Of a DNA stretch of 42,694 nt, positions 1,943 through 31,022 are shown piece after piece (position 1 is the first letter of the stretch; the number at the start of each line of letters is the position of its first letter). This DNA is from Rhodospirillaceae bacterium. Its GTDB lineage: Bacteria > Pseudomonadota > Alphaproteobacteria > UBA2966. The stretch is from positions 1-42,694 of the forward strand of contig NZDS01000193.1 in NCBI GenBank assembly GCA_002690215.1. The letters are read 5' to 3'. The notes below the pieces were generated by a model. That model saw only the letters and a list, made by a program, of their open reading frames with translations, had not been told where the DNA came from and did not search any database. Position numbers and translations under genes: made by a program.

Positions 1943-2398
1943 ATGACTGCCCAAGCCCAAATAGATATGAGCACAGCGAAATCACTCAAACCCATAGTGT
2001 GGCTCGAAAGCTTCGAGATCGGTCACCGGGAAATCGATCAGGAGCATCGAAAAATCCTCGGTTCGCTGAACGATCTTGTGGCCGCTAGCAGCGCGGGCCG
2101 CACCGCTGACATGTTCGAGCTGTGCGAGTCATTTCGCCACCGGCTGGGTTCGCACTTTGCTACGGAAGAAGCGGTCTTGCGCCAGAGCGGGTTTCCCCGC
2201 GCCGACGACCACGTCGAAACCCACCGTCAGCATTTCGACAATGTCTATGCCATCGTCTCGGGCTGCGGCGCCAAATGCACGCGTGGCCAGCAGCACGACT
2301 GTGCCGGCCGTTTCGCCCACATTCTGGTCGATCACATGATCCGCGACGACCTCGACTTCAAGTCCTTCCTCAACCATCACCTGGGCGTATCGGCTTAA
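1943..2398 (+). CDS. Bacteriohemerythrin (O2-binding di-iron protein)
   Basis: Counting from the ATG at 1943 (151 residues), all seven di-iron ligands are present with family spacing: H35 (IDQEH), H71 and E75 (HFATEE), H90 and H94 (HVETH), H131 and D136 (HMIRDD). Such single-domain cytoplasmic four-helix proteins bind O2 reversibly and serve in oxygen delivery, sensing or scavenging. The loop between H94 and H131 is cysteine-rich (C108, C112, C120), which is unusual. The start is uncertain: an in-frame ATG at 1880 has a weak GAGAG motif, but the extra 21 codons include rare AGG and ATA and do not resemble the family; ATG 1967 is also possible. The FNR-type box at 1810 suggests induction at low oxygen. 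The 3' end overlaps the convergent HyuB1 gene by 29 bases. Confidence 0.9.
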   Translation: MTAQAQIDMSTAKSLKPIVWLESFEIGHREIDQEHRKILGSLNDLVAASSAGRTADMFELCESFRHRLGSHFATEEAVLRQSGFPRADDHVETHRQHFDNVYAIVSGCGAKCTRGQQHDCAGRFAHILVDHMIRDDLDFKSFLNHHLGVSA

Positions 2399-4214
2399 GG
2401 CACAGCTCGCGTTCGCCGACCAACCGAACTTCGGCTATGTCCAGTGGCTGGTGGAAGAGGCGCAGATAGACCGGGGTTTCGCCACTGCCGACCGTACGCA
2501 TTTCCTGCCGCGCCGTTGCGGTTGCGGCGGCGTCGAGCGTTAGGCTTTGCGGCTCTATGACGCACCCGTAGACGAGGCGGGCGTAGTCCAGCGTGATGTA
2601 TTCCTCGATGACGTCGGCCAACCCCCGTTCGGGGTCGCGCTCCAGCGCCGCGCCGTGACCGCCGCCGCCGGCCGAGATGTGGCAAAGCACGTCGCCATCT
2701 TCGAGTTGCACGGCCTCCATCGGCATCACCGGCAAGAGGCGCTGGTCGGGACCGGGGTTGAGGATATTCCAGGACGGTGTGCCCGGCGAGCCGCCGGCCA
2801 AACCATAGGGCAGAAACCGGCGCCGGTCCGAGCGGATGACCAGGCGCGCCTCCTGGGTGCGCAACCGGTATTGGCGCACGAAGGCAGGGGCGCCGCGAAA
2901 ACGCCCGGGGCCGCCGGAATTTTGCACCAGTCCATAGCGCTCGATCTCGACCGGGTAGAGCGCCTCGATCATCTCCACCGGCTGGTTGGTGATGTTGCCG
3001 CCCGGATTGGGGATGCCGTGGACGCCGTCGCGGTCGGGCAACGCACCCCAGGCCCCGGCCAGGGTTTCTGTGCAGACGAAGGGCCGGCCTTCGTGCCAGC
3101 CGCCGATGGCTGGGAAGCTGACGCCGCCTTCGCCGGCCGCCGGGATGCGTTCGGGCACGACCTGGGCGAAGGCGCCAAAGAGCGCGTCCAACATGCGCCA
3201 GCCAATGATGGCGCGGGCACCGCAGGCACCGGGCAGGCGGGGATTGACCAGCGTGCCTTCCGGGGCCACCAGATGGATGGGCCGGATGAAGCCCTGGAAG
3301 TTGGGGATCTCGGCCTCCGTCAGGCATTTGACCACCAGAAAGGCCGCCGATTTGGTGAACGGAATCGGGCAGTTGATGGCGCCGGGCACTTGATCCGAGG
3401 TGCCGCTCCAGTCGACTGTCAGGTGGTCGCCGTCGATGTCGACGCTCACCTTCAGCGTCAGCGCCTCCGGCGCTTCGCCCAGGCCGTCGAGATAGTCGGT
3501 AAATTCGTAACGCCCGTCGGGCAGCGCCTCGATCTCGGCCCGCATGAGAGCCTCGGCGTGATCGTGCAGCGCCTCGATTGTGGCCCGGAAGGTGTCCACG
3601 CCGTGGCGCTCCAGCAACGCCAGATAGCCTGCCTCGGCGCTACGACAAGCCGCCACCTGGGCTCGCATGTCACCGGCCACCTTGTCGGGCAGGCGGGTGT
3701 TCTTGGCCATCAGCTTGAAGAATGTCTGGTTGGGCCGGTCTTCCTCGTACATCTTGATGATGGGGATGCGCAGCCCCTCCTGGTAGATCTCGATGGCGAA
3801 GACGGCACCGCTGCCAGGCGCAATACCGCCCATGTCGGTCTGGTGTACCAGCGTTGCGGCGAAGCCTTCGAGCTGCCCCTCGAAGAAGATCGGCTTGACG
3901 ATGTAGACGTCCGGCAGGTGCATGCCGCCGCCGCCGTAAGGATCGTTCCAGACGAACATGTCGCCGGGCCGCATGTCGCCCTCATAGTCGGCGATGAGCT
4001 GGGCCAGGGCGTCGGGAAACGAACCAAGATGCAGCGCCATGGTCAGGCCGTGTGCGATGGCCCGGCCCTGGCGATCGCAAAGCCCCGTCGAATAATCCAT
4101 GGAATCGCGTACGATCGAGGAATATGCGGTACGCATGATGACCAGCGCCATCTCGTCGGCGAGCGAGCCCAGCGCGTTCTGGATCACCTCCATGGTCACG
4201 GGATCGGCTTTCAT
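2370..4214 (-). CDS. hyuB: Hydantoinase B/oxoprolinase family, beta subunit (HyuB1)
   Basis: The 614-residue protein starts DPVTMEVIQNAL, carries the family signature NDPYGGGGMHLPD, and has the glycine-rich C-terminal SAGGGGHGAALERDPERG. HyuB proteins pair with HyuA to form ATP-dependent amidohydrolases that open lactam or hydantoin rings (5-oxoprolinase, N-methylhydantoinase), or carboxylases such as acetophenone carboxylase. Its ATG overlaps the HyuA1 stop codon by one base (TAATG), indicating translational coupling and a 1:1 complex. The tail is about 40 residues longer than in the two other HyuB proteins of this window. The frame stays open upstream to 4349, but that extension is arginine-rich and lies inside hyuA1, so it is not believed. 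Substrate unknown. Confidence 0.9.
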   Translation of the reverse strand: MKADPVTMEVIQNALGSLADEMALVIMRTAYSSIVRDSMDYSTGLCDRQGRAIAHGLTMALHLGSFPDALAQLIADYEGDMRPGDMFVWNDPYGGGGMHLPDVYIVKPIFFEGQLEGFAATLVHQTDMGGIAPGSGAVFAIEIYQEGLRIPIIKMYEEDRPNQTFFKLMAKNTRLPDKVAGDMRAQVAACRSAEAGYLALLERHGVDTFRATIEALHDHAEALMRAEIEALPDGRYEFTDYLDGLGEAPEALTLKVSVDIDGDHLTVDWSGTSDQVPGAINCPIPFTKSAAFLVVKCLTEAEIPNFQGFIRPIHLVAPEGTLVNPRLPGACGARAIIGWRMLDALFGAFAQVVPERIPAAGEGGVSFPAIGGWHEGRPFVCTETLAGAWGALPDRDGVHGIPNPGGNITNQPVEMIEALYPVEIERYGLVQNSGGPGRFRGAPAFVRQYRLRTQEARLVIRSDRRRFLPYGLAGGSPGTPSWNILNPGPDQRLLPVMPMEAVQLEDGDVLCHISAGGGGHGAALERDPERGLADVIEEYITLDYARLVYGCVIEPQSLTLDAAATATARQEMRTVGSGETPVYLRLFHQPLDIAEVRLVGERELCLKPIRPGDG

Positions 4215-6301
4215 TACTCGTCCTCGGCGGTGACGACGATGTTGGCGCTGGCGTCGAGCCTGGCCCGCCAGCCCGGCGGCACGACGCAAGTGGCGTCGTA
4301 TTCCTCGACGATCAGCGGCCCCGGCCTTTCGTCGCCGATCAGATCGCACCGCGCCAGCACCGGGGTCTCGAGCCGGCCCTGGTCGGGCCCGAAGTAGGCG
4401 GTTCGATTGCCGCCCGAGCTGCCGCGCTCAGCTGCCACGGCGGGCAGGGGATCGTAGCCCAAAGGCGGTGGCGGTACCCGGCCGGCAACGCGTAGCGCCA
4501 CGCACTCGACCGCCTCGTCTTCGGCACGATGGCCGTAGGTGCGCTCGTGTTCGTCACCAAAGGCCAAAGCCAGGGCGGTCAGGTCGCTGCGGCTATCGGC
4601 GCCGCCGTTGGGCAGCACTAGCTCGTGGGCCTGGCCGAAGTATCGCAAATCGGCAAAGCGCAGGATCTCCACCGCTTCGGGACCGAAGCCCTCGACCGTC
4701 ATGGTCCGGCGCAGCTCCGCCAGCAAGGGCTCATACGCGCTATCCAGATCGTCCGCCGAAAGCTCGTCGAGGCGCTTGAGGTACGCCCGGTTGGTCTCGT
4801 GCTCGACGGCCGAGAGCAGCAGCCCGAAGGCGCTGAAGACGCCCGGATTGGGCGGTACCAGGATTTCCGTCATGCCCATCAGCCGGGCCACCTCGGCGGC
4901 CACCACCGGACCGTTGCCGCCGAAGGCGAAAAGCGCGAAGTCGCGCGGATCGCGGCCGCGGTAGGTCGATACGGCCTTGACCGCCCGCACCATGGTGCTG
5001 CCGGCCACCTGGTAGACACCGTAGGCTGTCTCCTCCAGCTCTTTCTGCAGCGGCCCGGCGACGCGTTCCGCCAATACTTCTCGGGCCTTCCCGGCGTTCA
5101 GCGCCAGGGCCCCGCCGACCAGGTGATGCGGATTGAGATAGCCCAATGCCACCATGGCGTCGCTGAAGGTGGGGTCTACGCCGCCCCGGTCGTAGGCCAC
5201 CGGGCCGGGATCGGCGCCCGCACTTTCCGGCCCCACGTGCATCAAACCCCCGGCGTCGACGGCAACGATGCTGCCGCCCCCGGCACCGATTTCCGAAATG
5301 TCGATGACAGGCAGCTTGAGCGCAAATCCGCCGCCCATGACAAGCTTCGACGAGAGATTGATGCCGGCGCCGACCTCGTAGTCGCCGGTCTTGTCGACCC
5401 GTCCCTCTTCGACCATGGCCGCTTTGGCCGTGGTGCCGCCCATGTCCAGCGTGATGCAGTCGGGACCGCCGATCATTTTGGCCACCTCGGCGGCGCCGAT
5501 GACGCCGGCGGCGGGTCCGGATTCGACGATGTAGGCCGGCCTTTCGGTGGCTGCTGCCAGACTCATGGTGCCGCCGTCCGACTTCATCACCTGCAAGGGC
5601 GCCTGGATGCCGGCGGCGGTCAAGTGTCGGGACAGCGAGTGGAAATAGCGCTCCAGAATGGGTCCGAGATAGGCGTTGATGACGGTGGTGCTGGTCCGTT
5701 CGTATTCGCGGATCAGCGGCAGGATGTCGCTGGAACAAGTGATGAAGGCGCCGTCCAGGTGACGGCGCAGGATCTCCGCCACGCGGTGTTCGTGTTCGGG
5801 GTTGGCGTAAGCATGCAATAGCGAGATTGCCACGGCCTCGACGCCCGCAGCCCGGAGCCGTTCGGCGGCACGCACGACGCTGGCTTCGTCGAGTTCTCGA
5901 CGCAGCTCACCGAGTGGGCCAAGTCGCTCGTCGACCTCCAATCTCAGCCGGCGCGGCACCAGCGGCTCGGGTTTGGGGTAGTTGAGCACGTACATCTCGG
6001 GAATGCGCAAGCGCCGCATGTCGAGTACGTCGCGAAATCCCCGCGTCGTAACCAGGCCGGTCAAGGCGCCCTGGCGCTCCAGGATGGCGTTGGTGGCGAC
6101 GGTGGTGGCGTGGACGATGCTTTCGACGTCCTCCGGTCCGGCTCCGCGCTCGGCCAATGCCTGGCTCAGGCCGGCGACGATGCCGCGACCGTAGTCGTCC
6201 GGCGTCGACAATACCTTGCGGCTTTGTTGGCTGCCGTCGGCGCCAATCAGGATGACGTCGGTGAAGGTGCCGCCGATGTCGATGCCGACGCGATAGCGCA
6301 T
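4214..6301 (-). CDS. hyuA: Hydantoinase A/oxoprolinase family, alpha subunit (HyuA1)
   Basis: The 695-residue protein contains the actin-like ATPase phosphate motifs VGIDIGGTFTDV near the N-terminus and TLDMGGTTAKA in the middle, plus a conserved ATTVATNAILER segment. This is the N-terminal and core hydantoinase A architecture of 5-oxoprolinase-type enzymes, in which ATP activates the ring carbonyl before hydrolysis. The ATG at 6301 is preferred because an AGGA lies ten bases upstream and homologues begin right before the GIDIGGT strand; a start 12 codons further up is possible. It forms a two-gene operon with hyuB1 and is divergent from the PyrK-like gene across an 80-base gap. It is one of three HyuA paralogues here, and nothing in the sequence identifies its substrate. 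Confidence 0.9.
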   Translation of the reverse strand: MRYRVGIDIGGTFTDVILIGADGSQQSRKVLSTPDDYGRGIVAGLSQALAERGAGPEDVESIVHATTVATNAILERQGALTGLVTTRGFRDVLDMRRLRIPEMYVLNYPKPEPLVPRRLRLEVDERLGPLGELRRELDEASVVRAAERLRAAGVEAVAISLLHAYANPEHEHRVAEILRRHLDGAFITCSSDILPLIREYERTSTTVINAYLGPILERYFHSLSRHLTAAGIQAPLQVMKSDGGTMSLAAATERPAYIVESGPAAGVIGAAEVAKMIGGPDCITLDMGGTTAKAAMVEEGRVDKTGDYEVGAGINLSSKLVMGGGFALKLPVIDISEIGAGGGSIVAVDAGGLMHVGPESAGADPGPVAYDRGGVDPTFSDAMVALGYLNPHHLVGGALALNAGKAREVLAERVAGPLQKELEETAYGVYQVAGSTMVRAVKAVSTYRGRDPRDFALFAFGGNGPVVAAEVARLMGMTEILVPPNPGVFSAFGLLLSAVEHETNRAYLKRLDELSADDLDSAYEPLLAELRRTMTVEGFGPEAVEILRFADLRYFGQAHELVLPNGGADSRSDLTALALAFGDEHERTYGHRAEDEAVECVALRVAGRVPPPPLGYDPLPAVAAERGSSGGNRTAYFGPDQGRLETPVLARCDLIGDERPGPLIVEEYDATCVVPPGWRARLDASANIVVTAEDE

Positions 6302-6381
6302 GCTGCGATCATCCTTTGCCCCGATGGTGGTCAACATTTCATGCTAGAACGCGGAAGCACGCAAGCAGCGGGGAGCGGGGC

Positions 6382-7194
6382 GTGACGGCACCAGCCAAAC
6401 CGATCGGCGAATTCGTCTGCCGGGTTCGCGAGAACACCTGGGTCAATCCGGAATACAAGCATCTGGTGCTGGAGGCTCCGGCCGCCGCTCTGGGGGTCGG
6501 GCCGGGCCAGTTCTTCCACCTGCTCTGCCCCGCCACGGCTACCGAGGCGCCCTTCCTGCGGCGGCCCATGAGCGTTTACCGCAGCGACCAGGCGGCCGGC
6601 CGGCTGGAATTTCTCTACAAGGTCGTTGGGGCCGGCACCCGCGTTATGGCGGCGCTGGAACCGGGCGACGACTTCGAGGTGCTGGGGCCGCTGGGCCACG
6701 GCTTCGAAATCGATCCGACCTGGCGGCGAATCGTCATCGTCGCCCGCGGCGTCGGCCTGGCCACCCTGGCGCCGCTGGTGACGGCCGCCAAGGCCGCCAG
6801 CATCGGCGTCAGCGCCATCCTCAGCGCGCGTTCGCCCGAGCTATTGATGTCGGCAGACAGCATGGCTGCGGACGGTGCCGACGTGGTGACGCTGACTGAC
6901 GCAGAGGGCAGCTCCGATCCGGCCGAGGTCGAAGATTTGGTGCGTTCGCTGGTCGTCACCACACCCATCGACGCCTTCGCCACCTGTGGCTCCAACCGCC
7001 TGCTCGCGCTCTTGCAGCGACTAGGCGCGGAATACGACATCCCCGGCCAGGTGGCGCTGGAACAGACCATGGGCTGCGGCCTGGGGATGTGTTTTTGCTG
7101 CGTGCGCCGCGTCCGCACGCCGGACGGTGAAGTCTACAAGCGCGTATGTTGGGAGGGCCCGGTGTTCGACCTGCAGGAGGTTATCGTTCCGTGA
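6382..7194 (+). CDS. PyrK-like FAD/[2Fe-2S] electron-transfer subunit
   Basis: From a GTG start at 6382 (270 residues) preceded by a GGGGAG/GCGGGG purine tract, the protein follows the PyrK layout: an FAD-binding barrel with RRPMSVY, a GPLGHGF loop, a nucleotide-binding region (GVGLATLAPLV), and a C-terminal [2Fe-2S] site with C-x4-C-x2-C (CGLGMCFCC) and a final cysteine in RVCWEGPVF. In class 1B dihydroorotate dehydrogenase PyrK passes electrons between NAD(H) and the PyrD subunit. A PyrD-like gene lies downstream on the same strand, separated by an opposite-strand reductive-dehalogenase-like gene whose 3' end overlaps this one by 14 bases. It may therefore serve PyrD, the dehalogenase-like protein, or both. 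The nucleotide-binding loop departs from the usual GGG pattern. Confidence 0.85.
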   Translation: MTAPAKPIGEFVCRVRENTWVNPEYKHLVLEAPAAALGVGPGQFFHLLCPATATEAPFLRRPMSVYRSDQAAGRLEFLYKVVGAGTRVMAALEPGDDFEVLGPLGHGFEIDPTWRRIVIVARGVGLATLAPLVTAAKAASIGVSAILSARSPELLMSADSMAADGADVVTLTDAEGSSDPAEVEDLVRSLVVTTPIDAFATCGSNRLLALLQRLGAEYDIPGQVALEQTMGCGLGMCFCCVRRVRTPDGEVYKRVCWEGPVFDLQEVIVP

Positions 7195-8422
7195 CTCCGG
7201 CTTCCTGCCACCAGTCGGCCGGCAGCTTGCGTTTGCCGAAGCCGAGCCGGATGTCGAGCCATAGTGCCAGGCGCCTGAAGCGGCTGCCCATCAACCAGCG
7301 CAGTGCCCGCATGGCCGGCTTTGAGAAGTCCTTGTTGTAGGGGCAGACGCGCATGCAGATGCTGCAGTCGGTTTTGATTCGAGTCCAGTAGTCGAAACAC
7401 TTTTCGGCGTCCGACGTCCATTTCTTGACGCCGGCCAGGCCCGAACGATTGGCCACTTCGAAGCTCGGCGGACCGAACGGCAGGGCGCGGGGCGGGCAGG
7501 CGTCGGCGCAGCGGTCGCAAATATCGCAAAACTCGCTGACGCCGAAAGGCTGGGGCCGGTCGACGGCCAGAGGCATGTCGGTGAAGACTTTGGAAAAGCG
7601 CACCCGGGGCCCGAATTCCTTGCTGATCACCATCTGGTGCCGGCCGTATTCGCCGAGCCCCGCCTTAACCGCGAAAGGGATGGCCAAAGCTGTGTCGTTC
7701 ATGTTGGCCACGGCTTCGTACCCGAGATTGCGGATGTACTGGGCCAGCATGGCCAGATTTGCGGCTTCGGCCGAATATCCCTTGCCCACGGCGGCGCTAC
7801 CCGTCGCCGAGGGGAAAGTGTTGATGAGCCCGTAGTCCATGGCGTGGCCGACGACGATGACGGTCTTCAGGCCTGCGGGCAGCTCGTTGGGCCGCGCCTC
7901 CTTGGCGATGATGCTGAATTTCTGCGTATAGACCCAGCGCTCGTCGTATTCGGCGATGCCGACCAGGTCGGCGCCGAGAAAACGGGCGACGCGCTTGACC
8001 TCATTCGTGATCTGGGCCGCGTCGTCGACGGGCAGTTTTTCCGCCGCCGGCGGGTGGTAGGGGTCGATAGGATCCTGGAAGCCCTCGCGTTTGCCTTCGC
8101 TCTGGCCGCGTTCGGAGTAGGTCCGTGCCACCACCCATGAGGCGTTCCGCAGCGCAAAGTCACGCTGGCGAAAGCCATCGGCCTTGCGCGGCTTGGGATC
8201 CTTCTGCTGGGCGTAGAAGTCAGCCACGGCGTCGGACATGACGCTCTGGTCCCACTGCACGCGGCAGAACATGTCGTTGCGTTGGTCGAAGGGCTCGAAG
8301 TCGTCGCGGATCTCGAAGCCGGCCTCGCGGTCGCCGGCCCGCAGGCGTTGCTCGCGCGCTTCTTCCTCAGGCGGCCGGTTGGCCGGCCAACTCTCCCCCG
8401 GTGGCTTTTGGCCTGTTAACAT
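7181..8422 (-). CDS. Soluble reductive-dehalogenase-like corrinoid/Fe-S protein
   Basis: The 413-residue protein ends in two [4Fe-4S] motifs: C299-x2-C302-x2-C305-x3-C309-P and C342-x10-C353-x2-C356-x3-C360-P. The core (GLGEYGRHQMVISKEFGPRV, FTDMPL) matches the RdhA/QueG cobalamin-dependent superfamily; an N-terminal region with RNDMFCR and GFRQRDFALRNAS is typical of the RdhA branch. There is no twin-arginine signal, so unlike respiratory RdhA it should be cytoplasmic. It also lacks the C-terminal flavin/ferredoxin reductase module of catabolic enzymes such as BhbA/NpRdhA, so it needs an external electron donor; the neighbouring PyrK-like protein is a candidate. No RdhB anchor gene is present. 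Dehalogenation is plausible but unproven; a different corrinoid redox reaction is equally possible. Confidence 0.8.
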   Translation of the reverse strand: MLTGQKPPGESWPANRPPEEEAREQRLRAGDREAGFEIRDDFEPFDQRNDMFCRVQWDQSVMSDAVADFYAQQKDPKPRKADGFRQRDFALRNASWVVARTYSERGQSEGKREGFQDPIDPYHPPAAEKLPVDDAAQITNEVKRVARFLGADLVGIAEYDERWVYTQKFSIIAKEARPNELPAGLKTVIVVGHAMDYGLINTFPSATGSAAVGKGYSAEAANLAMLAQYIRNLGYEAVANMNDTALAIPFAVKAGLGEYGRHQMVISKEFGPRVRFSKVFTDMPLAVDRPQPFGVSEFCDICDRCADACPPRALPFGPPSFEVANRSGLAGVKKWTSDAEKCFDYWTRIKTDCSICMRVCPYNKDFSKPAMRALRWLMGSRFRRLALWLDIRLGFGKRKLPADWWQEAGVTER

Positions 8423-8450
8423 GGGGTCAGTTTACATGCCGGGGGCAGCC

Positions 8451-9386
8451 ATGGTCGATCTCAGCGTAGCTATCGGCGAAGTGACGCTCGCCAACCCCAT
8501 CATGCCGGGCTCAGGCACTTTCGCCGATGGCATGGACCGGGTCATCGATCTCGACCGCCTGGGGGCGCTGGTTTCCAAGACCATCACGCCCGACGTGCGC
8601 GAAGGCAATCCACAGCCCCGGGTTACCGAGTACCGCGATGCCATGCTTTGTTCCATCGGCATACCCAGCAAGGGGCCGGAGCACTACGTCGACGAAGTGG
8701 TACCCTTTTATCGCAATTTCCGGCCGCCGTTGGTTTGCAGCATCTCGGCCTCCACGGCGGCGGCCTTCGGCGAGCTGGCGGCGCGCGTCAGCGTCGATGG
8801 CGTGGCGGTGATCGAGGCCAACATCTCGTGCCCCAACCTGGAACAGGATGGCCGCGCCTTCGCCATGGAAGAAGCTGCCACGCGGTCCGCCATCGCCGCC
8901 ATCAAGGCGGCCAGTGACCGTCCGATATGGGCCAAGCTGACGCCCAACGTCGGTGACATCACGCTGATCGCCCGGGCTGCGGCTACGGGCGGCGCCGACG
9001 CCTTGGTAGTGGCCAACGCCCTGCTGGGTATGGCCATCGACACTGAAAGCTTTCGGCCCAAGCTGGGCAATTTGATGGGCGGTCTGACCGGCCCGGCGGT
9101 CAAGCCGGTGATCCTGCGCATGGTTTATCAGTGCGCCCAGGCAGTGGACCTTCCCATCATCGGCTGCGGCGGCATCGCTACTTGCGAGGATGTCGTCGAA
9201 TACCTGCTGGCCGGCGCCAGCGCTGTGCAGGTGGGCACAGCCAGTTTCCGCCATCCCAGCACCATGACGCGCCTGCTCGACGAGCTGCCGGCCTGGTGCG
9301 AGCGCAAGGGCATCGCCCGGGTTGCCGACCTCACGGGCGCCATGATCGCCGACGTCGCCGAGCCCGAACGCGAGGCCGCGGTTTAG
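8451..9386 (+). CDS. Dihydroorotate dehydrogenase-like (class 1B PyrD family)
   Basis: The 311-residue FMN TIM-barrel protein starts with the family pattern LSVAIGEVTLANPIMPGSGTF. It contains the NISCPN loop with C127, the catalytic-base cysteine of class 1 enzymes, and C-terminal FMN phosphate motifs (IIGCGGIATCEDVVEYLLAG, AVQVGTASF). Class 1B enzymes oxidise dihydroorotate together with PyrK; a PyrK-like gene lies 1.3 kb upstream on the same strand. The catabolic surroundings make a related dihydropyrimidine, imide or lactam oxidoreductase possible. ATG 8451 is chosen because homologues begin at this point; ATG 8436 and 8421 are in frame. The 5' end nearly abuts the divergent dehalogenase-like gene. 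The TAG overlaps the stop of the convergent amidase by a few bases. Confidence 0.8.
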   Translation: MVDLSVAIGEVTLANPIMPGSGTFADGMDRVIDLDRLGALVSKTITPDVREGNPQPRVTEYRDAMLCSIGIPSKGPEHYVDEVVPFYRNFRPPLVCSISASTAAAFGELAARVSVDGVAVIEANISCPNLEQDGRAFAMEEAATRSAIAAIKAASDRPIWAKLTPNVGDITLIARAAATGGADALVVANALLGMAIDTESFRPKLGNLMGGLTGPAVKPVILRMVYQCAQAVDLPIIGCGGIATCEDVVEYLLAGASAVQVGTASFRHPSTMTRLLDELPAWCERKGIARVADLTGAMIADVAEPEREAAV

Positions 9387-10756
9387 GTTTTTGTCAGCGC
9401 CTCAAACGCCTGACCCAGGCCGAGCAAGTTTTCGTCCGCGTTGGGCCGGCCGACGAGTTGGAAGCCCAGCGGTAAGCCATTGCTTGTGCCACAAGGAAGC
9501 GCCAAGGCCGGCAGACCGAGGTAGTTTATGGCACGCGTGAAGTAACCGGCGTCGGCCGGGGTGGCCAAGTCGAAGGCGGCGCCGGACAGCACCGGCTCGG
9601 CCGCTCGCGCCTCGACGTCGGCGAACCTGGGTGCCACGTCGGGGGTGCTGGGCAGCAACAGCGTGTCGACCTCGGCAAAGGCGCGGGCCAGGAAATCGGC
9701 CTGCGCCGCACTTCGCGCCTCGACGGCCTGCAAATAGTCGCTGGCCGTGAAGCCGAAGCCGATGAGCAAGCGTTCGCGCACCGCCGGGGTGAAGTCGGCG
9801 GCCCGTTGGCGCAGGCTGTCGGCGTGCGTGGCCGCCACCTCGCAGGCAAAAATGATGCCGGCCAGGGAGTTGAGGGAGGCGAAATCGGGCAGCTCGACCT
9901 CGACAATTTTGGCGCCGGCCTCGGCGCAGGTGTCGATGCTGGTGCCTAGCGCCGCCCCGAGCGCTGCCGGCAATCCCGCCAACGTCGCCGGCGGCGGTAC
10001 GCCAAGCCGCTGTCCGGCCAGGGCCAGTGGCGGCGCCGATGCAGTACCGACCAGCACGGCAAACAGCAGCGCGCAATCGGCCGCCGTGCGGCCCATCGGC
10101 CCGGGGCCGTCGAGCGAGGCGCTGGAAACCACCATGCCGCGGCGTCTCAGGCGACCGAAACTGGGCAGCAGCCCGACCACGCCGTTGAGTGCCGCCGGGC
10201 TGCGGATCGAGCCGCCGCTGTCCGAGCCCAGCGAACCGAAGACGAAGCCCGCCGCCAATGCCGCAGCCGAGCCGCCCGAGGAGCCACCGGCGACGTGACT
10301 TGAATTCCAGGGATTGCGCGCCGGCCCCATCAGCACGTTCATGCCATCGGGATGGAAGGCAAATTCCGACATGTTGAGGGAGCCGAGATCGATGGCCCCG
10401 GCTGCCTCCAGGAATTCCAGCAGGGAGGCCGAATAGCCCGGCACGAAGTCCGTCCAGAGCTTTGAGCCGCAAGTCGTTGGGCGCCCGGCGCGGCAAAAGA
10501 GATCCTTGTGGGCCAGCGGCACGCCATGCAGCGGACCCAGCGCCCCCAGTTCCCTTCCGCGCTGGAACCCGGCGTCGGCAGCTTCTGCGGCCTGGAGAGC
10601 GCGTTCGGGCTCCAAGGTAATGAAGGTTCGCAATTCGCTATCGCGGGCGGCGATGCGGGCCAGGCAGGCCTCGGTCAGCTCGAGCGATGAAAGCGCGCCC
10701 TGCCGCAGCGCCCGGGCCGCTGCAACCAGAGTGAGTTCACAGGGATCTTCGCTCAT
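9383..10756 (-). CDS. Amidase signature family enzyme 1 (AtzE/GatA-like)
   Basis: The 457-residue protein carries the complete Ser-cisSer-Lys triad: K84 (LAHKDLF), cis-Ser S159 (GGSSGGSAAALAAG) and nucleophile S183 (DSGGSIRSPA), with the exact 24-residue S-S spacing of the family. Such enzymes hydrolyse amides, ureas or imide-derived products in the cytoplasm. Its start overlaps the stop of a small upstream gene (ATGA), and that gene encodes an AtzG/GatC-like helper, so an AtzE-AtzG type complex is likely. AtzE hydrolyses 1-carboxybiuret, but this substrate cannot be assigned here because no cyanurate or allophanate genes are visible. It is not a GatA for tRNA: no GatB is adjacent and a second similar pair occurs at 20-21.7 kb. 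Confidence 0.9.
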   Translation of the reverse strand: MSEDPCELTLVAAARALRQGALSSLELTEACLARIAARDSELRTFITLEPERALQAAEAADAGFQRGRELGALGPLHGVPLAHKDLFCRAGRPTTCGSKLWTDFVPGYSASLLEFLEAAGAIDLGSLNMSEFAFHPDGMNVLMGPARNPWNSSHVAGGSSGGSAAALAAGFVFGSLGSDSGGSIRSPAALNGVVGLLPSFGRLRRRGMVVSSASLDGPGPMGRTAADCALLFAVLVGTASAPPLALAGQRLGVPPPATLAGLPAALGAALGTSIDTCAEAGAKIVEVELPDFASLNSLAGIIFACEVAATHADSLRQRAADFTPAVRERLLIGFGFTASDYLQAVEARSAAQADFLARAFAEVDTLLLPSTPDVAPRFADVEARAAEPVLSGAAFDLATPADAGYFTRAINYLGLPALALPCGTSNGLPLGFQLVGRPNADENLLGLGQAFEALTKT

Positions 10757-10982: not shown

Positions 10983-12143
10983 ATGCCCACGCTGGAAGTC
11001 CGCTACTGGCCCAAACGCCTGCGCATCGGCCCAGGCTCGGTGGCCGATTTGCCCGACCTGATGGCCGAGCAGCGCCGCCAGCGCGCACTCGTGGTCTGCG
11101 GTCGCACCGTGGGCGGCGGCGACATGCTGGTTGGCGTGCGCCGTGCGTTGGGCGCCGGCCTGGCGGGGGTTTTCACCGGGGTCGAAGCGCACACGCCGCT
11201 GGCTGCCGTCGAGGCCGGCCTCGAGGCGGCGCGAGAATGCCAGGCCGACACAATCATCAGCGTCGGCGGCGGCAGCACCATCGACGCCGCCAAAGGCATC
11301 GTGATCCTTGATGCCAGCGGTGGTGAGTTCGCGCTTTATCAGGTCGTCCGTGGCGACGGCGGGGCCGCCGAGCGGCCCGTTCTGGGCGGCGGATCGCTGG
11401 CCCACATTGCTGTGCCGACGACCGCCGGCTCGGCTTCGGAAGCCATGCCCACGGCTGGGATTCGTGATCCCCAGGCGGGTCGCAAACTGCTCTTTTGGGA
11501 CGATCACCTGGTGCCGGCGGCGGTGGTTCTGGACCCCGAGATGGCGGTCCATGCTGGGCCCGAACTCAGCGCTGCCACTGGCATGACGGCCATGGCACGC
11601 TGCCTCGAGGGGCTCTATTCCCGTGACCGCCAGGCCATCTCGACGGGCCTGGCACTGCACGCCGCCGGCTTGTTGATCGAGGCTCTGCCGCGGAGCATCA
11701 CGGCGCCCGACGACTTGGAGGCGCGCCAAGCCTGCCAATTGGCGGCGCTGATGTCTGGCGTGGCCTCGATCAATGCCATGGCCTCGGTTGTCCACGCCAT
11801 CGGTCACGGCGTCGGCGGGCGTTATGGGCTGCAGCACGGCATCTCGCACGCCATGCTGTTGCCGTCGGCGGTGCGGCTGCTGCTGCCGGCGATCGGCGGC
11901 GAGGGCTCCACTGTGGCGACCGCATTGGGCGGCAGCGGCGACGATCCAGCCGAAGCCGCGGCTTCCGCCATCGAATCCCTGCTCGACAAGCTGCCCCTGC
12001 CGCGGAGTTTGCGTGAGGTCGGTGTTGGTGAGGACGAGATTGCCGAATTGGCGGCCGGCACCATGGACGACTACATGATGGACTATGCGCCCCGGCCCGT
12101 GTCCGAGGCCGAGATCGCTGCCCTGCTGACCGCGGTCTGGTAG
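10983..12143 (+). CDS. Iron-containing alcohol dehydrogenase-like / maleylacetate reductase-like
   Basis: The 386-residue protein has the Fe-ADH Rossmann motif SVGGGSTIDAAKG (about residues 93-105), PTTAGSASEAM and the helical C-terminal domain. Two of the four metal ligands are missing: the usual Asp and His of the GMDAxxH motif are T202 and R206 (GMTAMARCLE), while H271 and H285 remain. Maleylacetate reductases in this superfamily also work without metal, so NAD(P)H-dependent reduction of an activated keto or ene compound is plausible. It begins 65 bases from the divergent AtzG-like gene and heads an operon with MmgE/PrpD, HyuA2 and HyuB2; the next gene starts two bases after its stop. Annotation as a plain iron alcohol dehydrogenase would be misleading. 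Confidence 0.85.
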   Translation: MPTLEVRYWPKRLRIGPGSVADLPDLMAEQRRQRALVVCGRTVGGGDMLVGVRRALGAGLAGVFTGVEAHTPLAAVEAGLEAARECQADTIISVGGGSTIDAAKGIVILDASGGEFALYQVVRGDGGAAERPVLGGGSLAHIAVPTTAGSASEAMPTAGIRDPQAGRKLLFWDDHLVPAAVVLDPEMAVHAGPELSAATGMTAMARCLEGLYSRDRQAISTGLALHAAGLLIEALPRSITAPDDLEARQACQLAALMSGVASINAMASVVHAIGHGVGGRYGLQHGISHAMLLPSAVRLLLPAIGGEGSTVATALGGSGDDPAEAAASAIESLLDKLPLPRSLREVGVGEDEIAELAAGTMDDYMMDYAPRPVSEAEIAALLTAVW

Positions 12144-12145
12144 CG

Positions 12146-13492
12146 GTGGCGACGATATCCCAGATCCTGGCGGCCTGGATTGTCGCGGCCGAGGTGCCGG
12201 CGGCACAGCAAGGGAAGGCGACGCTGCGCGTCCTCGATACCCTTGGCCTGGTGGCGGCGGCGCTCGACACTCCGCAGGCCGAGGCGGTGCGCGAATTTGC
12301 CTGTGACCAGGGCGGTGGGTCGCAAGCCGGATTGGTCGGCGGGACGCGTTTGCCGGCCGGCCTGGCGGCGCTGGTCCACGGCACGCTGGCCCATGCCTTC
12401 GACTTCGATGACACGTTTGCCGACAGCGTCGTCCACCCCGGTAGCGTCGTCGTCCCCACGGCCCTCGCGGCAGGCGAGGCCCATGCCGCCACGGGGGCGG
12501 CCGTGCTCGATGCCGTGGCCGTCGGTTACGAAGTGGCGGCCCGGCTGGGGGCCGTCGCCGGGCGCGGCTTTCACGGCCGCGGCTTTCATGCTTCGGGGAT
12601 CATCGGGCCGCTGGCCGCGGCCGCCGTGGCGTCACGGCTTATGGGTCTGACGGCTGATCAGACCGCCCAAGCGCTGGGGCTGGCCGGCAGCATGTCGGGC
12701 GGTCTGTTGGCCTTCGTCGAGGATGGCTCGTGGTCCAAGTGGCTGCACCTGGGGTGGGCGGCCCAGGGCGGCATCACGGCAGCCGGTCTGGCGGGCCGGG
12801 GTTTTCGCGGTCCGGTTTCGGTGCTGGAAAGCGATCACGGTCTCTATGCCGCGCATCTCGGCAGTACCGAAGGGGTGGAGGCCATCTGCGATGATCTGGG
12901 CGGGGTTTGGCAGGGTGACCAGGCGCTCCCGAAGACCTATCCCTGCGCCCACGTCATCCAACCGTTCCTCGACACTGCCATCGAGGCGCGAAGCGAGGAG
13001 AATTTGGCAGCCGATACCATCGCCCAGGTCATCTGTACCTTGGCACCGTGGGCCGTGCCCATCGTGGCTGAGCCGCGGTCGCTCAAGCTCGAGCCCAGCG
13101 GACCGCTCGACGCCATCGCCAGTTTGCCCTTCATGGTCGCCGCTGCGTTGGTCGAGGGCCGCGTCGATCTCGATACCTTGGCGCCTGAAAGCCTGGTGCG
13201 GCCAGACATCCTTGCCCTGGCGGCGCGCGTCGAGCACGAGGCCGACGCGACGCTGGGGCAGGGCTTCGACGGCCGGCTGGAGATCACGACCGGCCGCCGG
13301 CTGCGCTATGAGGTGCGGGCCCATGTTGCGGTGCCGGCGCAACTCCGCGAAAAATTCCGCCGCAATGCCGGGCGCAATTTCGCTCCTGGCGCCGTGGCTG
13401 CCATCGAGAGTGCCGTCGACGGTCTGGCCGAGGACGGGTTCGCGCCGCTCTGGCAGGCCTGCACCACCTCGCGAGGAACGGAAAACCCATGA
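12146..13492 (+). CDS. MmgE/PrpD family protein
   Basis: The 448-residue protein shows the all-alpha plus small alpha/beta layout of MmgE/PrpD, with the recognisable HGTLAHAFDFDDT motif (about residues 78-90), YEVAARLG and a HASGIIGPLAAAA segment. The superfamily contains 2-methylcitrate dehydratase, cis-aconitate decarboxylase and iminodisuccinate epimerase; all act on small polycarboxylates at acidic alpha-carbons. The start is GTG at 12146, two bases behind the Fe-ADH stop, and the stop overlaps the HyuA2 ATG (ATGA), so it is translationally coupled on both sides. Next to HyuAB, epimerisation or dehydration of a cyclic or amino-dicarboxylate intermediate is a reasonable inference. There are no prpB/prpC genes, which argues against a methylcitrate role. 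Confidence 0.85.
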   Translation: MATISQILAAWIVAAEVPAAQQGKATLRVLDTLGLVAAALDTPQAEAVREFACDQGGGSQAGLVGGTRLPAGLAALVHGTLAHAFDFDDTFADSVVHPGSVVVPTALAAGEAHAATGAAVLDAVAVGYEVAARLGAVAGRGFHGRGFHASGIIGPLAAAAVASRLMGLTADQTAQALGLAGSMSGGLLAFVEDGSWSKWLHLGWAAQGGITAAGLAGRGFRGPVSVLESDHGLYAAHLGSTEGVEAICDDLGGVWQGDQALPKTYPCAHVIQPFLDTAIEARSEENLAADTIAQVICTLAPWAVPIVAEPRSLKLEPSGPLDAIASLPFMVAAALVEGRVDLDTLAPESLVRPDILALAARVEHEADATLGQGFDGRLEITTGRRLRYEVRAHVAVPAQLREKFRRNAGRNFAPGAVAAIESAVDGLAEDGFAPLWQACTTSRGTENP

Positions 13493-15567
13493 GCGAAGTG
13501 AAATCCTCTCAACCGAGCCTTCGCCTGGCCGTCGACGTCGGCGGCACTTTCACCGACGTCACGTTGTTTGATGCGATCAGTGGCGCGCTGACCTCGGCCA
13601 AGGTGCTGACCACGCCCGCCGACCGCGCGGCCGGCGTATTGGGTGGCATCGAGGCGGCGCTGGGATCGGCGGATGGAGCGGCGGTGCGTGAGGTGATCCA
13701 CGGCTCGACCACCGGCACCAACGCCCTGATCGAGCGCAGCGGGGCCAAGGTCGGGCTCCTGACCACCCGGGGCTTTCGTGACGTGCTCGAGATCGGCCGC
13801 ATCCAGCGGCCCATGGCCGGGCTTTACGACATCTCGGTCGACCGGCCGCCGCCGCTGGTGCCGCGCCACCTTTGCCTGGAGGTCGACGAGCGCCTGGACG
13901 CCACCGGTTCTGTCCTCAGGCCGCTGGACGAGACGGCGGTCGGTGCCGCCGCTGAGACATTCGCCGCGGCTGGCGTCGAGGCCGTGGCGGTGTGTTTCCT
14001 GTTTTCCTACCTCGACCCGATTCACGAGGAGCGCGCGGCCGAGATCCTGGCGGCGGCGCTGCCCGGCGTGCCGATGACGCTGTCGTGCCGCGTCAGTCCC
14101 GAATACCGCGAATACGAACGCGCCTCGACGGCCGTCATGAACGCCTACCTGACGCCCATCATGGCGGCCTATCTCGATGACCTGGAGCAGCGCCTGGACC
14201 ATACCCTGGGTGCCGCCAAGCTTTTCATCATCCAGGCCAACGGCGGCTCGACCTCTGTGCAGGTGGCCCGCCAGCGTGCCGTCACTACGGTCAACTCGGG
14301 TCCCGCGGGTGGCGTCGTGGCGGCCGCCTATTACGGCCGGCGGCACGACCGCGAACGCCTGGTTTCGGTCGACATGGGCGGAACCTCGTTTGATATCGGT
14401 TTGATCGAGGGCGGCGTCTCCAAGGTCACCACGGAAGGAGCCTTCCAGGACTTGCCGGTCAAGATTCCCATCATCGACCTGCACATCATCGGTGCCGGCG
14501 GCGGTTCCATCGCCTGGCTCGATCCAGGAGGCGCGCTCAACGTCGGGCCGCGTTCGGCCGGAGCCGATCCCGGCCCGGCCTGCTACGGCCGCGGCGGCGA
14601 CCAGCCCACGGTGACCGATGCCAATCTGGTGCTGGGCCGTCTCAACCCGGATTACTTCAACGGCGGCCAAATGGCGCTGGATACCGAAGCGGCGCGCCGG
14701 GTAGTGGGCGAGCTGGCGGCCGAGATGGGGCTGGGTCTCGAAGAGACCGCGCTGGGTATCGTTAAGGTGGTCAACGCCAACATGATCCGCGGCATCGCCA
14801 CGGTAACCATCCAACGCGGCATCGACGCGCGCGATTTCTCGCTCTGCTCGTTCGGCGGGGCCGGCGGCGTGCATGCCGTCGACATCGCCCGCGAGCTGGC
14901 CATGAAGGAAACCATCGTGCCGCCGCTGGCGGGCACCTTCTCGGCCGTGGGCTTGCTGGTTACCGAGATGCGCCACGATTTCGTCACCGCCTTGGGCGGC
15001 GTGCGAGCCGAAGACACCGATCTGGCCGAGTTGGAAGCACATTATCAGCGCATGGAAGAGGAGGGCCGGGACGCCCTGGCGACCCAGGGGTTTGCTAGAT
15101 CAGGTATTAAATTGAATCGTTCAGCCGATCTCAAGGTGGCGGGGCAGACCTACGAACTTTCGCTGCCCTTGCCGCAAGAAGGGGCGCTGGATCCGGCCGG
15201 CCTGGAGGCGTTGCTGGTGGCCTTTGGCGATCTCTACCGCGAGCGCTACGCCTTCTTCTTTGCCGGCGAGCCCATCGAGCTTGTCAACCTCAGGGTCCAG
15301 GCCCTGGGCGCGTCGGAATCGGTCGAGTTGCCGGGGCAGTCGGGCGGCGAGGCGGCCAAGGCTGCCCGGCCCGTCTATTTCGAAGGCCCGGGCTTCGTCG
15401 AAACCGCAGTTTACGAACGCCAGGGACTGGCCCCGGGCAGCATCATCGTCGGCCCGGCGGTGATCGAGGAGGAAACCGCCTGCACCGTGGTACCACCATT
15501 GGGCCGCGCCGAGGTGGCTGAAGACCTCGGCCTTTTCATCGATCTGATCAGGGGAGAGTCCACATGA
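13489..15567 (+). CDS. hyuA: Hydantoinase A/oxoprolinase family, alpha subunit (HyuA2)
   Basis: The 692-residue protein has the ATPase motifs LAVDVGGTFTDVTLF near residue 13 and VSVDMGGTSFDIGLI in the middle, GSTTGTNALIER, and the RSAGADPGPACYGRGG segment of hydantoinase A. It should activate a ring carbonyl with ATP and act with HyuB2. The ATG overlaps the MmgE/PrpD stop by four bases, and its own stop overlaps the HyuB2 ATG in the same way. The HyuA1 and HyuA3 proteins differ at many positions outside the motifs, so this is an old paralogue or separately acquired gene rather than a recent duplicate. Substrate unknown; hydantoins, lactams and imides are candidates. Confidence 0.9.
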   Translation: MSEVKSSQPSLRLAVDVGGTFTDVTLFDAISGALTSAKVLTTPADRAAGVLGGIEAALGSADGAAVREVIHGSTTGTNALIERSGAKVGLLTTRGFRDVLEIGRIQRPMAGLYDISVDRPPPLVPRHLCLEVDERLDATGSVLRPLDETAVGAAAETFAAAGVEAVAVCFLFSYLDPIHEERAAEILAAALPGVPMTLSCRVSPEYREYERASTAVMNAYLTPIMAAYLDDLEQRLDHTLGAAKLFIIQANGGSTSVQVARQRAVTTVNSGPAGGVVAAAYYGRRHDRERLVSVDMGGTSFDIGLIEGGVSKVTTEGAFQDLPVKIPIIDLHIIGAGGGSIAWLDPGGALNVGPRSAGADPGPACYGRGGDQPTVTDANLVLGRLNPDYFNGGQMALDTEAARRVVGELAAEMGLGLEETALGIVKVVNANMIRGIATVTIQRGIDARDFSLCSFGGAGGVHAVDIARELAMKETIVPPLAGTFSAVGLLVTEMRHDFVTALGGVRAEDTDLAELEAHYQRMEEEGRDALATQGFARSGIKLNRSADLKVAGQTYELSLPLPQEGALDPAGLEALLVAFGDLYRERYAFFFAGEPIELVNLRVQALGASESVELPGQSGGEAAKAARPVYFEGPGFVETAVYERQGLAPGSIIVGPAVIEEETACTVVPPLGRAEVAEDLGLFIDLIRGEST

Positions 15568-17279
15568 CCGACATGATCACCATGCAGGTGATCCGCTATG
15601 CCCTCGAGCAGATCGCCGACGAGATGGGCTACACGCTGGTGCGCACCGGCCGTTCGACCATCATCACCGAAATCAAGGACATCTCCTGCGTCGTCACCGA
15701 TGCCCGTGGACAGACCGTGGCCCAGGCCCACCACACACCCAGTCTGTTGGCCGGTTTCGAGATCACCATGAAGGAGCTGGTGGCGGCCTATCCGCCCGAA
15801 GATCTGGTGCCGGGCGACGTCATCATCACCAACGATCCCTACAAGGGCGGCCAGCACATCATGGATCTCTATGCCATCGCGCCGGCCTTTCATGGCGGCG
15901 AGCTGGTCGGCTTTGTAGGCAACATCACGCATCACTCGGACCTGGGCGGTGTGGCGGCGGGCGGCGTCGCCGGCGGTATTCGCGAGATCTACCTGGAAGG
16001 CCTCAGGCTGCCCATGGTCAAGCTGGTCAAGGCCGGCGTCGAAGACCGCGAGATCTTCGGCATCATCGCCAACCAGATACGCTTGCCCGAGAAGACCTTG
16101 GGCGACATCCGGGCCCAGATCAGCTCGCTGATGGTGGGGACCGAGCGCCTGGACCGACTTTTCGTGCGCTACGGCGACACCGTGGTGCGCCAGGCCTGGA
16201 GCGACCTCTTGGACTATTCCGAGCGGCGTATGCGCAAGGGATTGCAGGCATTGCCTGATGGCGTCTATCAGGCCGAGGATTTCATCGACGACGACGGCGT
16301 CATTGATCAACCCATCCGCGTCCACGTCAGCGTCGAAATCCGTGACGACCAAGTCATTGTCGATTTGAGCCAGTCCGACCCCCAGGCCCAAGGCAACACC
16401 AACTCGACCATGGCCAATACCCATGCCGCCATCTATTACGTCATGATTGCCGTGGTCGATCCCCAGACGCCGCCCAATTCCGGCTGCTACCGGCCGATCA
16501 AGGTGGTGACCAAGCCCGGCACCGTGGTGCATCCACTGCCACCCGGCGCCGTGGCGGCTCGCACCAACTGTTCGCAAAAGATCGTCGAGGCCATGTACGT
16601 GGCGCTCTCCGAAGTCGTGCCCGAGCGCGTCACCGCCGGCTCGCACGGGCAAATCTCGACTTGCGGCTTCGGCGGTTTGGACCCGGCCACCGGCGAGCCT
16701 TTCATTTTCACCGACATCCAGGGCGGCGGTAACGGTGCCCGGCCCTTTGCCGATGGTGCCGACGGCCAAGACAGCCATCTTCCGCGCTTCATGAATACCC
16801 CGGTGGAAGCCGTGGAGAGCCGCTTTCCTGTGCGCATCGAACGCTACGAGTTCATCCCCGATTCGGGTGGTGCCGGGCGCTACCGGGGCAGCCTGGCGCT
16901 GGTTCGCGACATCCGCTTGCTGGCCGACAAGGTGAGTTTTGCGCGCTATGGCGACCGCCACAAGTTCGCTCCCCAGGGCCTTTTCGGCGGCTTGCCTGGG
17001 GCCTGTGGCGCGTTCGTGCTCAATCCGGGAACGGCGACCGAAGTGGCGCTCAAATCCAAGGGCCTGGATACTTTGGCTGAGGGCGACCTGGTCAGCCTGC
17101 GCCTACCCGGCGCCGGCGGCTACGGCGACCCTGCCGAACGTGATCTCGACGCCATCGAGCGCGACCTCGAAAACCAGAAGATCACACCCGAAGCCGCCGA
17201 ACGCGACTACGGCGTGGTGCTTGATAATAGCGGCCAGCGCGTCGACCGGGGCGCTACGGAGGCCAAGCGGAGGGGCTAG
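15564..17279 (+). CDS. hyuB: Hydantoinase B/oxoprolinase family, beta subunit (HyuB2)
   Basis: The 571-residue protein begins DMITMQVIRYALEQIADEMG, carries NDPYKGGQHIMDLY and ends with the PGAGGYGDPAERD signature of HyuB proteins. A GGGGAGAG Shine-Dalgarno five bases before the ATG, inside the end of hyuA2, and an ATGA overlap indicate coupled translation of the two subunits. It closes the Fe-ADH, MmgE/PrpD, HyuA, HyuB operon; the REPIN-like inverted repeat 35 bases downstream could end transcription. Length is at the normal size for the family. As with its partner, the ring substrate cannot be deduced from sequence. Confidence 0.9.
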   Translation: MTDMITMQVIRYALEQIADEMGYTLVRTGRSTIITEIKDISCVVTDARGQTVAQAHHTPSLLAGFEITMKELVAAYPPEDLVPGDVIITNDPYKGGQHIMDLYAIAPAFHGGELVGFVGNITHHSDLGGVAAGGVAGGIREIYLEGLRLPMVKLVKAGVEDREIFGIIANQIRLPEKTLGDIRAQISSLMVGTERLDRLFVRYGDTVVRQAWSDLLDYSERRMRKGLQALPDGVYQAEDFIDDDGVIDQPIRVHVSVEIRDDQVIVDLSQSDPQAQGNTNSTMANTHAAIYYVMIAVVDPQTPPNSGCYRPIKVVTKPGTVVHPLPPGAVAARTNCSQKIVEAMYVALSEVVPERVTAGSHGQISTCGFGGLDPATGEPFIFTDIQGGGNGARPFADGADGQDSHLPRFMNTPVEAVESRFPVRIERYEFIPDSGGAGRYRGSLALVRDIRLLADKVSFARYGDRHKFAPQGLFGGLPGACGAFVLNPGTATEVALKSKGLDTLAEGDLVSLRLPGAGGYGDPAERDLDAIERDLENQKITPEAAERDYGVVLDNSGQRVDRGATEAKRRG

Positions 17280-29291: not shown

Positions 29292-31022
29292 TCATCGTGG
29301 CTTGGCACGCAGCGCGGCGGTCGCCGCTTCGTCCAGCGCCAGATCTTCACCGACTGCCACGCCAAACAGCTTGCGGGCCTGTTGGCGGCTGTAGTACCCG
29401 CGCACCAAGTCCTCTACCACTAGCGCCGGATCGCGCTCGAAGGGATCGCCATAGCCGCCACCGCCGGGCGTAGAGACCCGCACCAGATCGCCGGCCTGGA
29501 GTTCTATGTCCTGGGCCTTGGAAAGGTGGGGCGGCGTGTAGCTGTCGCCGCCGTGTTCCACCGTTACCCGATTGACGCCGCCCGTGTGGCCACCAAGGGC
29601 CCCGTTGGGTCCTACCCGGCCGTGGTCCATGACCATCGAGGCGCGGGCCTCGCCGCGGCGCAGCCGAACCGCGTAGTTGACACCGAAGCCGCCGCGGTGG
29701 CGGCCGGCGCCACCCGAGCCCTGGTGCAGCGAATATTCCTCGAACAGCACGGGATAGCGCTGCTCCATGACCTCGATGGGCGTGGTTTTGGAGATGCCGA
29801 TGGTCGAGCAGCCGTTGCTCAGGCCGTCGCTGTGGCGCGAGCCGCCGTAGCCGCCGCCCGAGATCACGTACATGACGTAACCGCGGTCGCCGGCCGGATC
29901 GACCCCGCCCAGCGCGAAGTTGCCCGAGGTGCCGGCGGGAGCGGCGAACAGGCGCTCGGGCAGGACCTCGACCAGGGCGTCGAAGACCGCTTCGGCGATG
30001 CGCTGGCTGACCTCGGCAGCGCAGCCCGAGACCGGCCGCGGGTAGTGGGCGTGCAAAAAAGTACCGTCGGGCGGCGTGATGTGCAGGGGCTCGAAGGTGC
30101 CGGCGTTGATCGGCACCTCGGGGAAGATGTGCTTGATGGCTAGATAGACCGACGACATGGTGGTGGCCAGCACCGAATTCATGGGACCGCGGCAGGGCGG
30201 ACTGGAGCCGGCGAAATCGAAATGGAGCGCGCTTTCGCGCTTTTCGATACTCACCTTGATGTCGAGAGGCTGGTCGACCACGCCGTCAGAATCGACGGAC
30301 GCCTGGCCCTGGTAGGTGCCGTCCGGGATCTCGTCCAAGCGCGCCCGCATCTGGCGCGCGGCGCGGCGGCGCAGCTCGGCGATGCCATCGAGAACGACAT
30401 CGCGTCCATAGCGGTCCAAAAGTGCGGCCAGCCGCCGCTCGCCCACCGCCAGGGCCGAGGCCTGGGCGCTGATGTCGCCGATGCGCTGGTCGGCGATGCG
30501 GATGTTGGAGAGGATGATGGCCAGGATCTCGTCGTCGACCTGACCCTCCTTGTAGAGCTTGACCGGCGGCAGCCTCAGGCCTTCCTGTTCGACCTCGGTG
30601 GCATTGGCCGAAAAGCCGCCCGGCACCATGCCGCCGGTGTCGGGCCAGTGACCTGTGTTGGCCAGCCAAAAGAGCATCTCGCCTTCATAAAAGAACGGCC
30701 GATAGAAGCGCACGTCCATCAGATGGGTGCCGCCGAGGTAGGGATCGTTGGCTATCACGACGTCACCGGGCCGCGGGTCCTTGATGCGCTCGGCAACATA
30801 GCGGGTGCCGAACTGCATGGTGCCGACGAAGACCGGCAGCCCGAGGTCACCCTGGGCAATGAGGGCGCCGTCGTCAGGGCCGTAGATGCCGTCCGAGCGA
30901 TCCAGCGCCTCCGAGATCACCGGGCTGAAGGCGGCCCGCACGAAGGCCAGGTCCATCTCGTTGCAGACCTGCTTGAGGCCGTTCTGGATGACCGCCAGGG
31001 TGACCGGGTCGAGGCCGCTCAC
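29292..31022 (-). CDS. hyuB: Hydantoinase B/oxoprolinase family, beta subunit (HyuB3)
   Basis: The 576-residue protein begins SGLDPVTLAVIQNGL and holds the signatures NDPYLGGTHLMDVR and PGGGGYGDPFERDP. The start is GTG 31022, which overlaps the HyuA3 stop codon (GTGA); the open frame further upstream to 31181 is an arginine-rich shadow of hyuA3. It should form the beta subunit of an ATP-dependent cyclic amidase with HyuA3. It is the last gene of the operon with the Mo-hydroxylase and the 6-hydroxynicotinate-reductase-like gene, so ring opening of a reduced lactam is the natural guess. Carboxylase-type relatives (acetone or acetophenone carboxylase) carry extra small subunits that are not found here. 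Confidence 0.9.
   Translation of the reverse strand: MSGLDPVTLAVIQNGLKQVCNEMDLAFVRAAFSPVISEALDRSDGIYGPDDGALIAQGDLGLPVFVGTMQFGTRYVAERIKDPRPGDVVIANDPYLGGTHLMDVRFYRPFFYEGEMLFWLANTGHWPDTGGMVPGGFSANATEVEQEGLRLPPVKLYKEGQVDDEILAIILSNIRIADQRIGDISAQASALAVGERRLAALLDRYGRDVVLDGIAELRRRAARQMRARLDEIPDGTYQGQASVDSDGVVDQPLDIKVSIEKRESALHFDFAGSSPPCRGPMNSVLATTMSSVYLAIKHIFPEVPINAGTFEPLHITPPDGTFLHAHYPRPVSGCAAEVSQRIAEAVFDALVEVLPERLFAAPAGTSGNFALGGVDPAGDRGYVMYVISGGGYGGSRHSDGLSNGCSTIGISKTTPIEVMEQRYPVLFEEYSLHQGSGGAGRHRGGFGVNYAVRLRRGEARASMVMDHGRVGPNGALGGHTGGVNRVTVEHGGDSYTPPHLSKAQDIELQAGDLVRVSTPGGGGYGDPFERDPALVVEDLVRGYYSRQQARKLFGVAVGEDLALDEAATAALRAKPR

Follow-up and report, generated by a model that had tools for sequence, protein, structure and literature searches.

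In this study, we propose that the pyrK-like and pyrD-like genes of a Rhodospirillaceae bacterium encode an NAD(P)H-linked, two-subunit flavoenzyme of the class 1B dihydroorotate dehydrogenase (DHODH) type that acts on a ring other than orotate and is linked to the neighboring HyuAB. We are moderately confident in this reading, and the pair would probably work within a ring-breakdown pathway. The computed evidence comprises the homology of both subunits, the retention of cofactor and catalytic residues, the change of two substrate contacts, the independence of the pair and the reductive dehalogenase (RDH)-like gene that lies between them, and a separate class 2 DHODH. From these observations we infer complex formation, reaction direction, the link to HyuAB and the substrate. 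The genes lie in a stretch of 42,694 nucleotides (contig NZDS01000193.1, assembly GCA_002690215.1), hereafter called the window.

An earlier note on this DNA described a pyrD/pyrK pair split by an opposite-strand RDH-like gene, and we recovered the same arrangement. All three ORFs are intact and tightly packed, with unchanged coordinates (Table 1). PyrD likely starts at the ATG at 8451, a Met common to its relatives, and the alternative in-frame ATG overlaps the start codon of the RDH-like gene. The stops of pyrK and the RDH-like gene overlap by 14 bp, and the starts of the RDH-like gene and pyrD are so close that there is little space for separate promoters. The trio is present in identical order at locus L066 of the sister species G001, the sole other species of the genus compared, with protein identities of 84-89%. 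The dN/dS values between the window and G001 were 0.193 for PyrK, 0.113 for the RDH-like protein and 0.130 for PyrD, indicating purifying selection on all three. Conservation of the layout in the sister species, together with this selection on each gene, shows that the arrangement is not a product of chance. The trio is restricted to these two species of the genus, and no PyrD match (E<=1e-30) was obtained among the 13 remaining genomes of the order.

The layout matches what has been defined as a noncontiguous operon: co-directional genes with an opposite-strand gene between them (PMC7154746). The stop overlap and the start gap, both conserved in the two species, also agree with mutual antisense repression of the RDH-like gene and pyrK-pyrD. 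This reading, made from the gene layout, is tentative and in our view rather doubtful, as pyrD may have its own promoter inside the RDH-like gene. Being about regulation, it does not conflict with the flavoenzyme explanation that we favor.

Table 1. Genes, intergenic regions and changed codons around the pyrK-pyrD locus of the window
Feature	Position	Strand	Remarks
HyuB-like subunit	2370-4217	-	best NCBIfam match caprolactamase beta, below cut-off
HyuA-like subunit of an ATP-dependent lactam/hydantoin hydrolase	4214-6337	-	best NCBIfam match caprolactamase alpha, below cut-off
Divergent start region of hyuA (-) and pyrK (+)	6338-6381	no strand	44 bp, equal length in G001
PyrK-like FAD/[2Fe-2S] electron-transfer subunit	6382-7194	+	270 aa, GTG start
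RDH-like corrinoid/2x[4Fe-4S] protein	7181-8422	-	413 aa
Divergent start gap of RDH-like gene and pyrD	8423-8450	no strand	28 bp
PyrD-like FMN barrel	8451-9386	+	311 aa; alternative in-frame ATG at 8421
PyrD codon 67	8649-8651	+	Cys replaces the orotate N1/O2-bonding Asn (Asn68 of LbDHODH)
PyrD codon 190	9018-9020	+	Ala replaces the orotate O2-bonding Ser/Thr (Ser196 of LbDHODH)
Amidase	9383-10756	-	between pyrD and the Fe-ADH gene; missing at this place in G001
Iron-containing alcohol dehydrogenase (Fe-ADH) family	10983-12143	+	syntenic in G001

The PyrK-like protein matches the Pfam models FAD_binding_6 and DHODB_Fe-S_bind and retains the Cys ligands MGCGLGMCFCC...C, with the four [2Fe-2S] Cys aligned. 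It also matches the NCBIfam PyrK models, with scores under the model (equivalog) cut-offs. The PyrD-like protein scored 317 bits against PRK07259 (cut-off 269), passed two DHODH models, and retains the catalytic Cys127 and Lys43. The pair thus has the features of class 1B, an FMN barrel with Cys and Lys and a partner with an FAD domain and [2Fe-2S] Cys, as in Lactococcus lactis PyrDB/PyrK (PDB 1EP1-1EP3). Unlike the L. lactis enzyme, it has two changed orotate contacts, an antisense gene between its subunit genes, a second DHODH in the genome and a PyrK below the equivalog cut-offs.

In LbDHODH, Asn68 and Asn195 bond ring N1/O2 and N3/O4, O2 is bonded by Ser196, and the carboxylate is held by Lys44 and backbone atoms (PMC12481576). 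We compared these positions (LbDHODH numbering), which fall in unambiguous motif blocks, across the PyrD relatives. All N-type members (14/14; 12 in recognized orotate-type loci and 2 unannotated) carry Asn68, Asn133, Asn195 and Thr196. The window species and G001 carry Cys68 and Ala196, a version present in these two genomes only, and the PyrD of Paroceanicella carries Phe68 and Ala196. A further four loci from Alphaproteobacteria carry Gln68 and, in place of Asn133, Thr133. The catalytic Cys and Lys are retained across all of these groups. Neither species of the window genus has the complete orotate-contact set of class 1B DHODH (Asn68->Cys, Ser/Thr196->Ala); the window PyrD retains the carboxylate-binding positions and most orotate contacts. 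To judge from these residues, the loss of the N1/O2 contacts with the others kept suggests that the substrate may be a carboxylated lactam or pyridone.

The window genus groups with Paroceanicella as a single clade of the PyrD tree (support 98/97), where the Gln68 group is a separate clade (support 100/100); the PyrK tree did not resolve the former grouping. The Gln68/Thr133 loci (L099, L101, L102 and L103) lie outside orotate-type operons, and the annotation of the c8/c9 clusters there revealed nothing clear. Class 1 DHODH-like proteins are able to switch substrate, as reported for fungal dihydrouracil oxidases (PMC9585004, PMC10395836). Like the proposed window enzyme, these class 1A DHODH-like proteins combine the DHODH fold and catalytic Cys with a changed substrate; they differ in being single-subunit oxidases with no PyrK.

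We then considered how the family is distributed. In a class sample of 289 Alphaproteobacteria genomes, PyrK matches (E<=1e-20) were found in seven, six of which also had a strong PyrD match (G000, G029, G074, G117, G222 and G228). In five of the six carriers, pyrK and pyrD lie next to each other, head to tail and co-directional, the exception being the window genome (G000); they are also adjacent on plasmids. Plasmid records with PyrK relatives numbered 97, including 53 from Klebsiella. The annotated relatives show the order transporter - pyrK - pyrD - Zn-dependent hydrolase of the carbamoylase type - dihydroorotase and/or orotate phosphoribosyltransferase (OPRT). Judged by this gene content, these operons apparently serve orotate breakdown or salvage. 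Operons of this kind were seen at L104-L109, L113 and L116-L118, many of them plasmid-borne. Our literature search found no paper on an orotate-breakdown operon, which is not proof of absence.

The PyrK-PyrD pairs from apparent orotate operons of, for example, Nitratireductor sp. OM-1, Pseudomonas putida p716811-VIM and Klebsiella plasmids belong to the same family, with the same subunits, at 43-60% identity to the window pair. They differ from it in having adjacent genes, the Asn/Thr contacts and neighboring dihydroorotase, carbamoylase or OPRT genes, whereas the window pair is accompanied by HyuAB and the RDH-like gene. We consider the window pair to be derived from, or sister to, this family of orotate breakdown, with an altered active site. 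Outside the genus, the nearest PyrD in our searches (60%) is that of Paroceanicella profunda plasmid pD4M1C (L112), which likewise has Ala196 and has lost Asn68. It differs in carrying Phe rather than Cys at position 68 and in its operon, where a molybdenum hydroxylase and an asparaginase accompany a Rieske oxygenase with ferredoxin. At L112:5055-11063, PyrK-PyrD is flanked by this Rieske oxygenase on one side and by its ferredoxin on the other, and the annotation shows no further reductase within 8 kb; this PyrK may serve the oxygenase.

An alternative explanation is that the window pair still reduces orotate in catabolism, or oxidizes dihydroorotate, and simply tolerates the two substitutions. 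PyrD passes the DHODH cut-offs and keeps the Cys, Lys and carboxylate-binding positions, so that it may retain weak or residual activity on orotate, and its nearest family members lie in orotate-type operons. However, both side chains that form hydrogen bonds to the N1/O2 edge are lost in the window lineage, and changes at positions 68/196 occur only in groups outside recognized orotate operons. Furthermore, no dihydroorotase, carbamoylase or OPRT was recognized near the pair in the window, where HyuAB, the amidase, Fe-ADH and the RDH-like gene are found instead. Biosynthesis is also covered by another enzyme: the separate housekeeping DHODH that the earlier note had asked for is present as a quinone-type class 2 enzyme at G000:C230, and class 2 DHODH exceeded the cut-off in all seven pair-carrying genomes checked. 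The window pair is therefore dispensable for pyrimidine biosynthesis, although it may have a biosynthetic role. Overall, we regard the orotate explanation as unlikely. That note had set against its own proposal the case of a trio found only here, with pyrD/pyrK as the genome's sole DHODH; the first half holds at the level of the genus, and the second does not.

Annotation pipelines would label the window PyrD a biosynthetic dihydroorotate dehydrogenase. Our comparison points to a PyrK-PyrD family outside biosynthesis in which the residues at two contact positions differ by genomic context (Asn/Thr in the orotate type; Cys/Ala and Phe/Ala elsewhere). The residues at positions 68/196 thus offer a simple sequence rule to flag class-1B-like enzymes that possibly act on other rings, and the comparison provides a small set of proteins for assay.

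The altered substrate contacts and the 44-bp divergent region, which is kept in G001, make plausible the suggestion that, next to HyuAB, the pair oxidizes or reduces a cyclic imide. The proposed link to HyuAB comes from this gene position and from the likeness of HyuA and HyuB to caprolactamase, which is below cut-off. Under the flavoenzyme explanation, NAD(P)H would reduce the FAD on PyrK, whose [2Fe-2S] cluster would relay electrons to the FMN on PyrD. PyrD would then reduce a ring C=C with Cys127 as acid/base, and HyuA/HyuB would use ATP to open the resulting lactam or imide. The opposite-strand RDH-like gene would be a stand-alone member of its own family, placed between pyrK and pyrD in an ancestor of the genus.

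The RDH-like protein scored 174.8 bits against NCBIfam TIGR02486 (cut-off 160.35). It has a corrinoid domain and two 4Fe-4S motifs with aligned Cys, as in PceA and NpRdhA/JtRdhA, and its Y216, N242 and R275 align with Y246, N272 and R305 of PceA. Retention of this Tyr/Asn/Arg set makes a corrinoid reductive reaction plausible. The absence of a Tat signal and a fused reductase claimed earlier was borne out: unlike these enzymes, the 413-aa protein shows no Tat motif on inspection and lacks a match to a reductase domain of the kind fused in self-sufficient dehalogenases. The rdhB gene that a respiratory RDH would have is not adjacent; the immediate neighbors are pyrK and pyrD. RdhA homologues without Tat have already been described (PMC3939436).

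This raises the explanation that PyrK, with or without PyrD, is an NAD(P)H-dependent reductase that feeds the soluble RDH in place of a fused reductase, as the earlier note proposed for its corrinoid trio. It would suit an RDH-like protein without its own reductase but with the PceA residues, in a trio kept under purifying selection in both species, and the Paroceanicella locus hints that PyrK might act for several partners. However, synteny in a single sister species is not independent evidence for an RDH-PyrK link, and the two units occur apart elsewhere. RDH relatives (E<=1e-80) were present in 11 of the 289 class genomes and overlapped with the six pair carriers only in the window genome. 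PyrK or PyrD had no match near the two other RDHs of this genome (C116, C130) or near 30 RDH loci of public genomes (44-61% identity; some loci short). Among the 89 RDH-flanking proteins, taken from a simple gene caller, no flavin reductase or ferredoxin recurred in the 25 commonest Pfam families. In addition, L. lactis PyrK depends on PyrD for cofactor loading (PMC8097209). We consider this explanation improbable, and the tempting claim of an NADH-driven dehalogenase was removed as unsupported. Co-occurrence of RDH and PyrK as a functional link was rejected, as was, among these 25 commonest flanking families, a common redox partner beside the RDH relatives. The RDH and the PyrK-PyrD pair are separate units, and the position of the RDH-like gene between pyrK and pyrD is most likely due to chance.

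A broader scheme would join all these elements: the RDH dehalogenates a carboxylated (possibly halogenated) N-heterocycle, PyrK-PyrD reduces a pyridone-like ring without the orotate N1-H/C2=O edge (e.g. 2-oxo-pyridine-4-carboxylate), HyuAB opens the lactam, and RDH and pyrKD form a cross-regulated noncontiguous operon. We regard this scheme as highly improbable. A literature search for links to citrazinate or isonicotinate found none.

The window contains three HyuA/HyuB pairs (2370-6337, 13489-17279 and 29292-33079), and the subunits scanned against NCBIfam matched caprolactamase or acetophenone carboxylase models, all under cut-off. Besides HyuA/HyuB, the region 29292-38982 encodes a UPF0280-type protein, a molybdenum hydroxylase and a homologue of plasmid proteins annotated as 6-hydroxynicotinate reductase (63-66% identity). 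This cluster suggests N-heterocycle breakdown.

RDHs over the model cut-off numbered three in the window genome and three in the sister species. In the RDH tree, two outgroup rows (L072, L080) were very long, so we relied on the close clade only. A 924-aa "fusion" at L036 was rejected as an open frame extending upstream of the normal RDH start. At G000:C30:17812-19271 and G000:C35:2670-3944, we observed a side-by-side pair of divergent RDH-superfamily genes as well as an RDH frame of 725 aa that matched RDH twice. The Chloroflexota RDH relatives (L046-L057) lie next to an ABC transporter (permeases, binding protein and ATPase), and this block is conserved.
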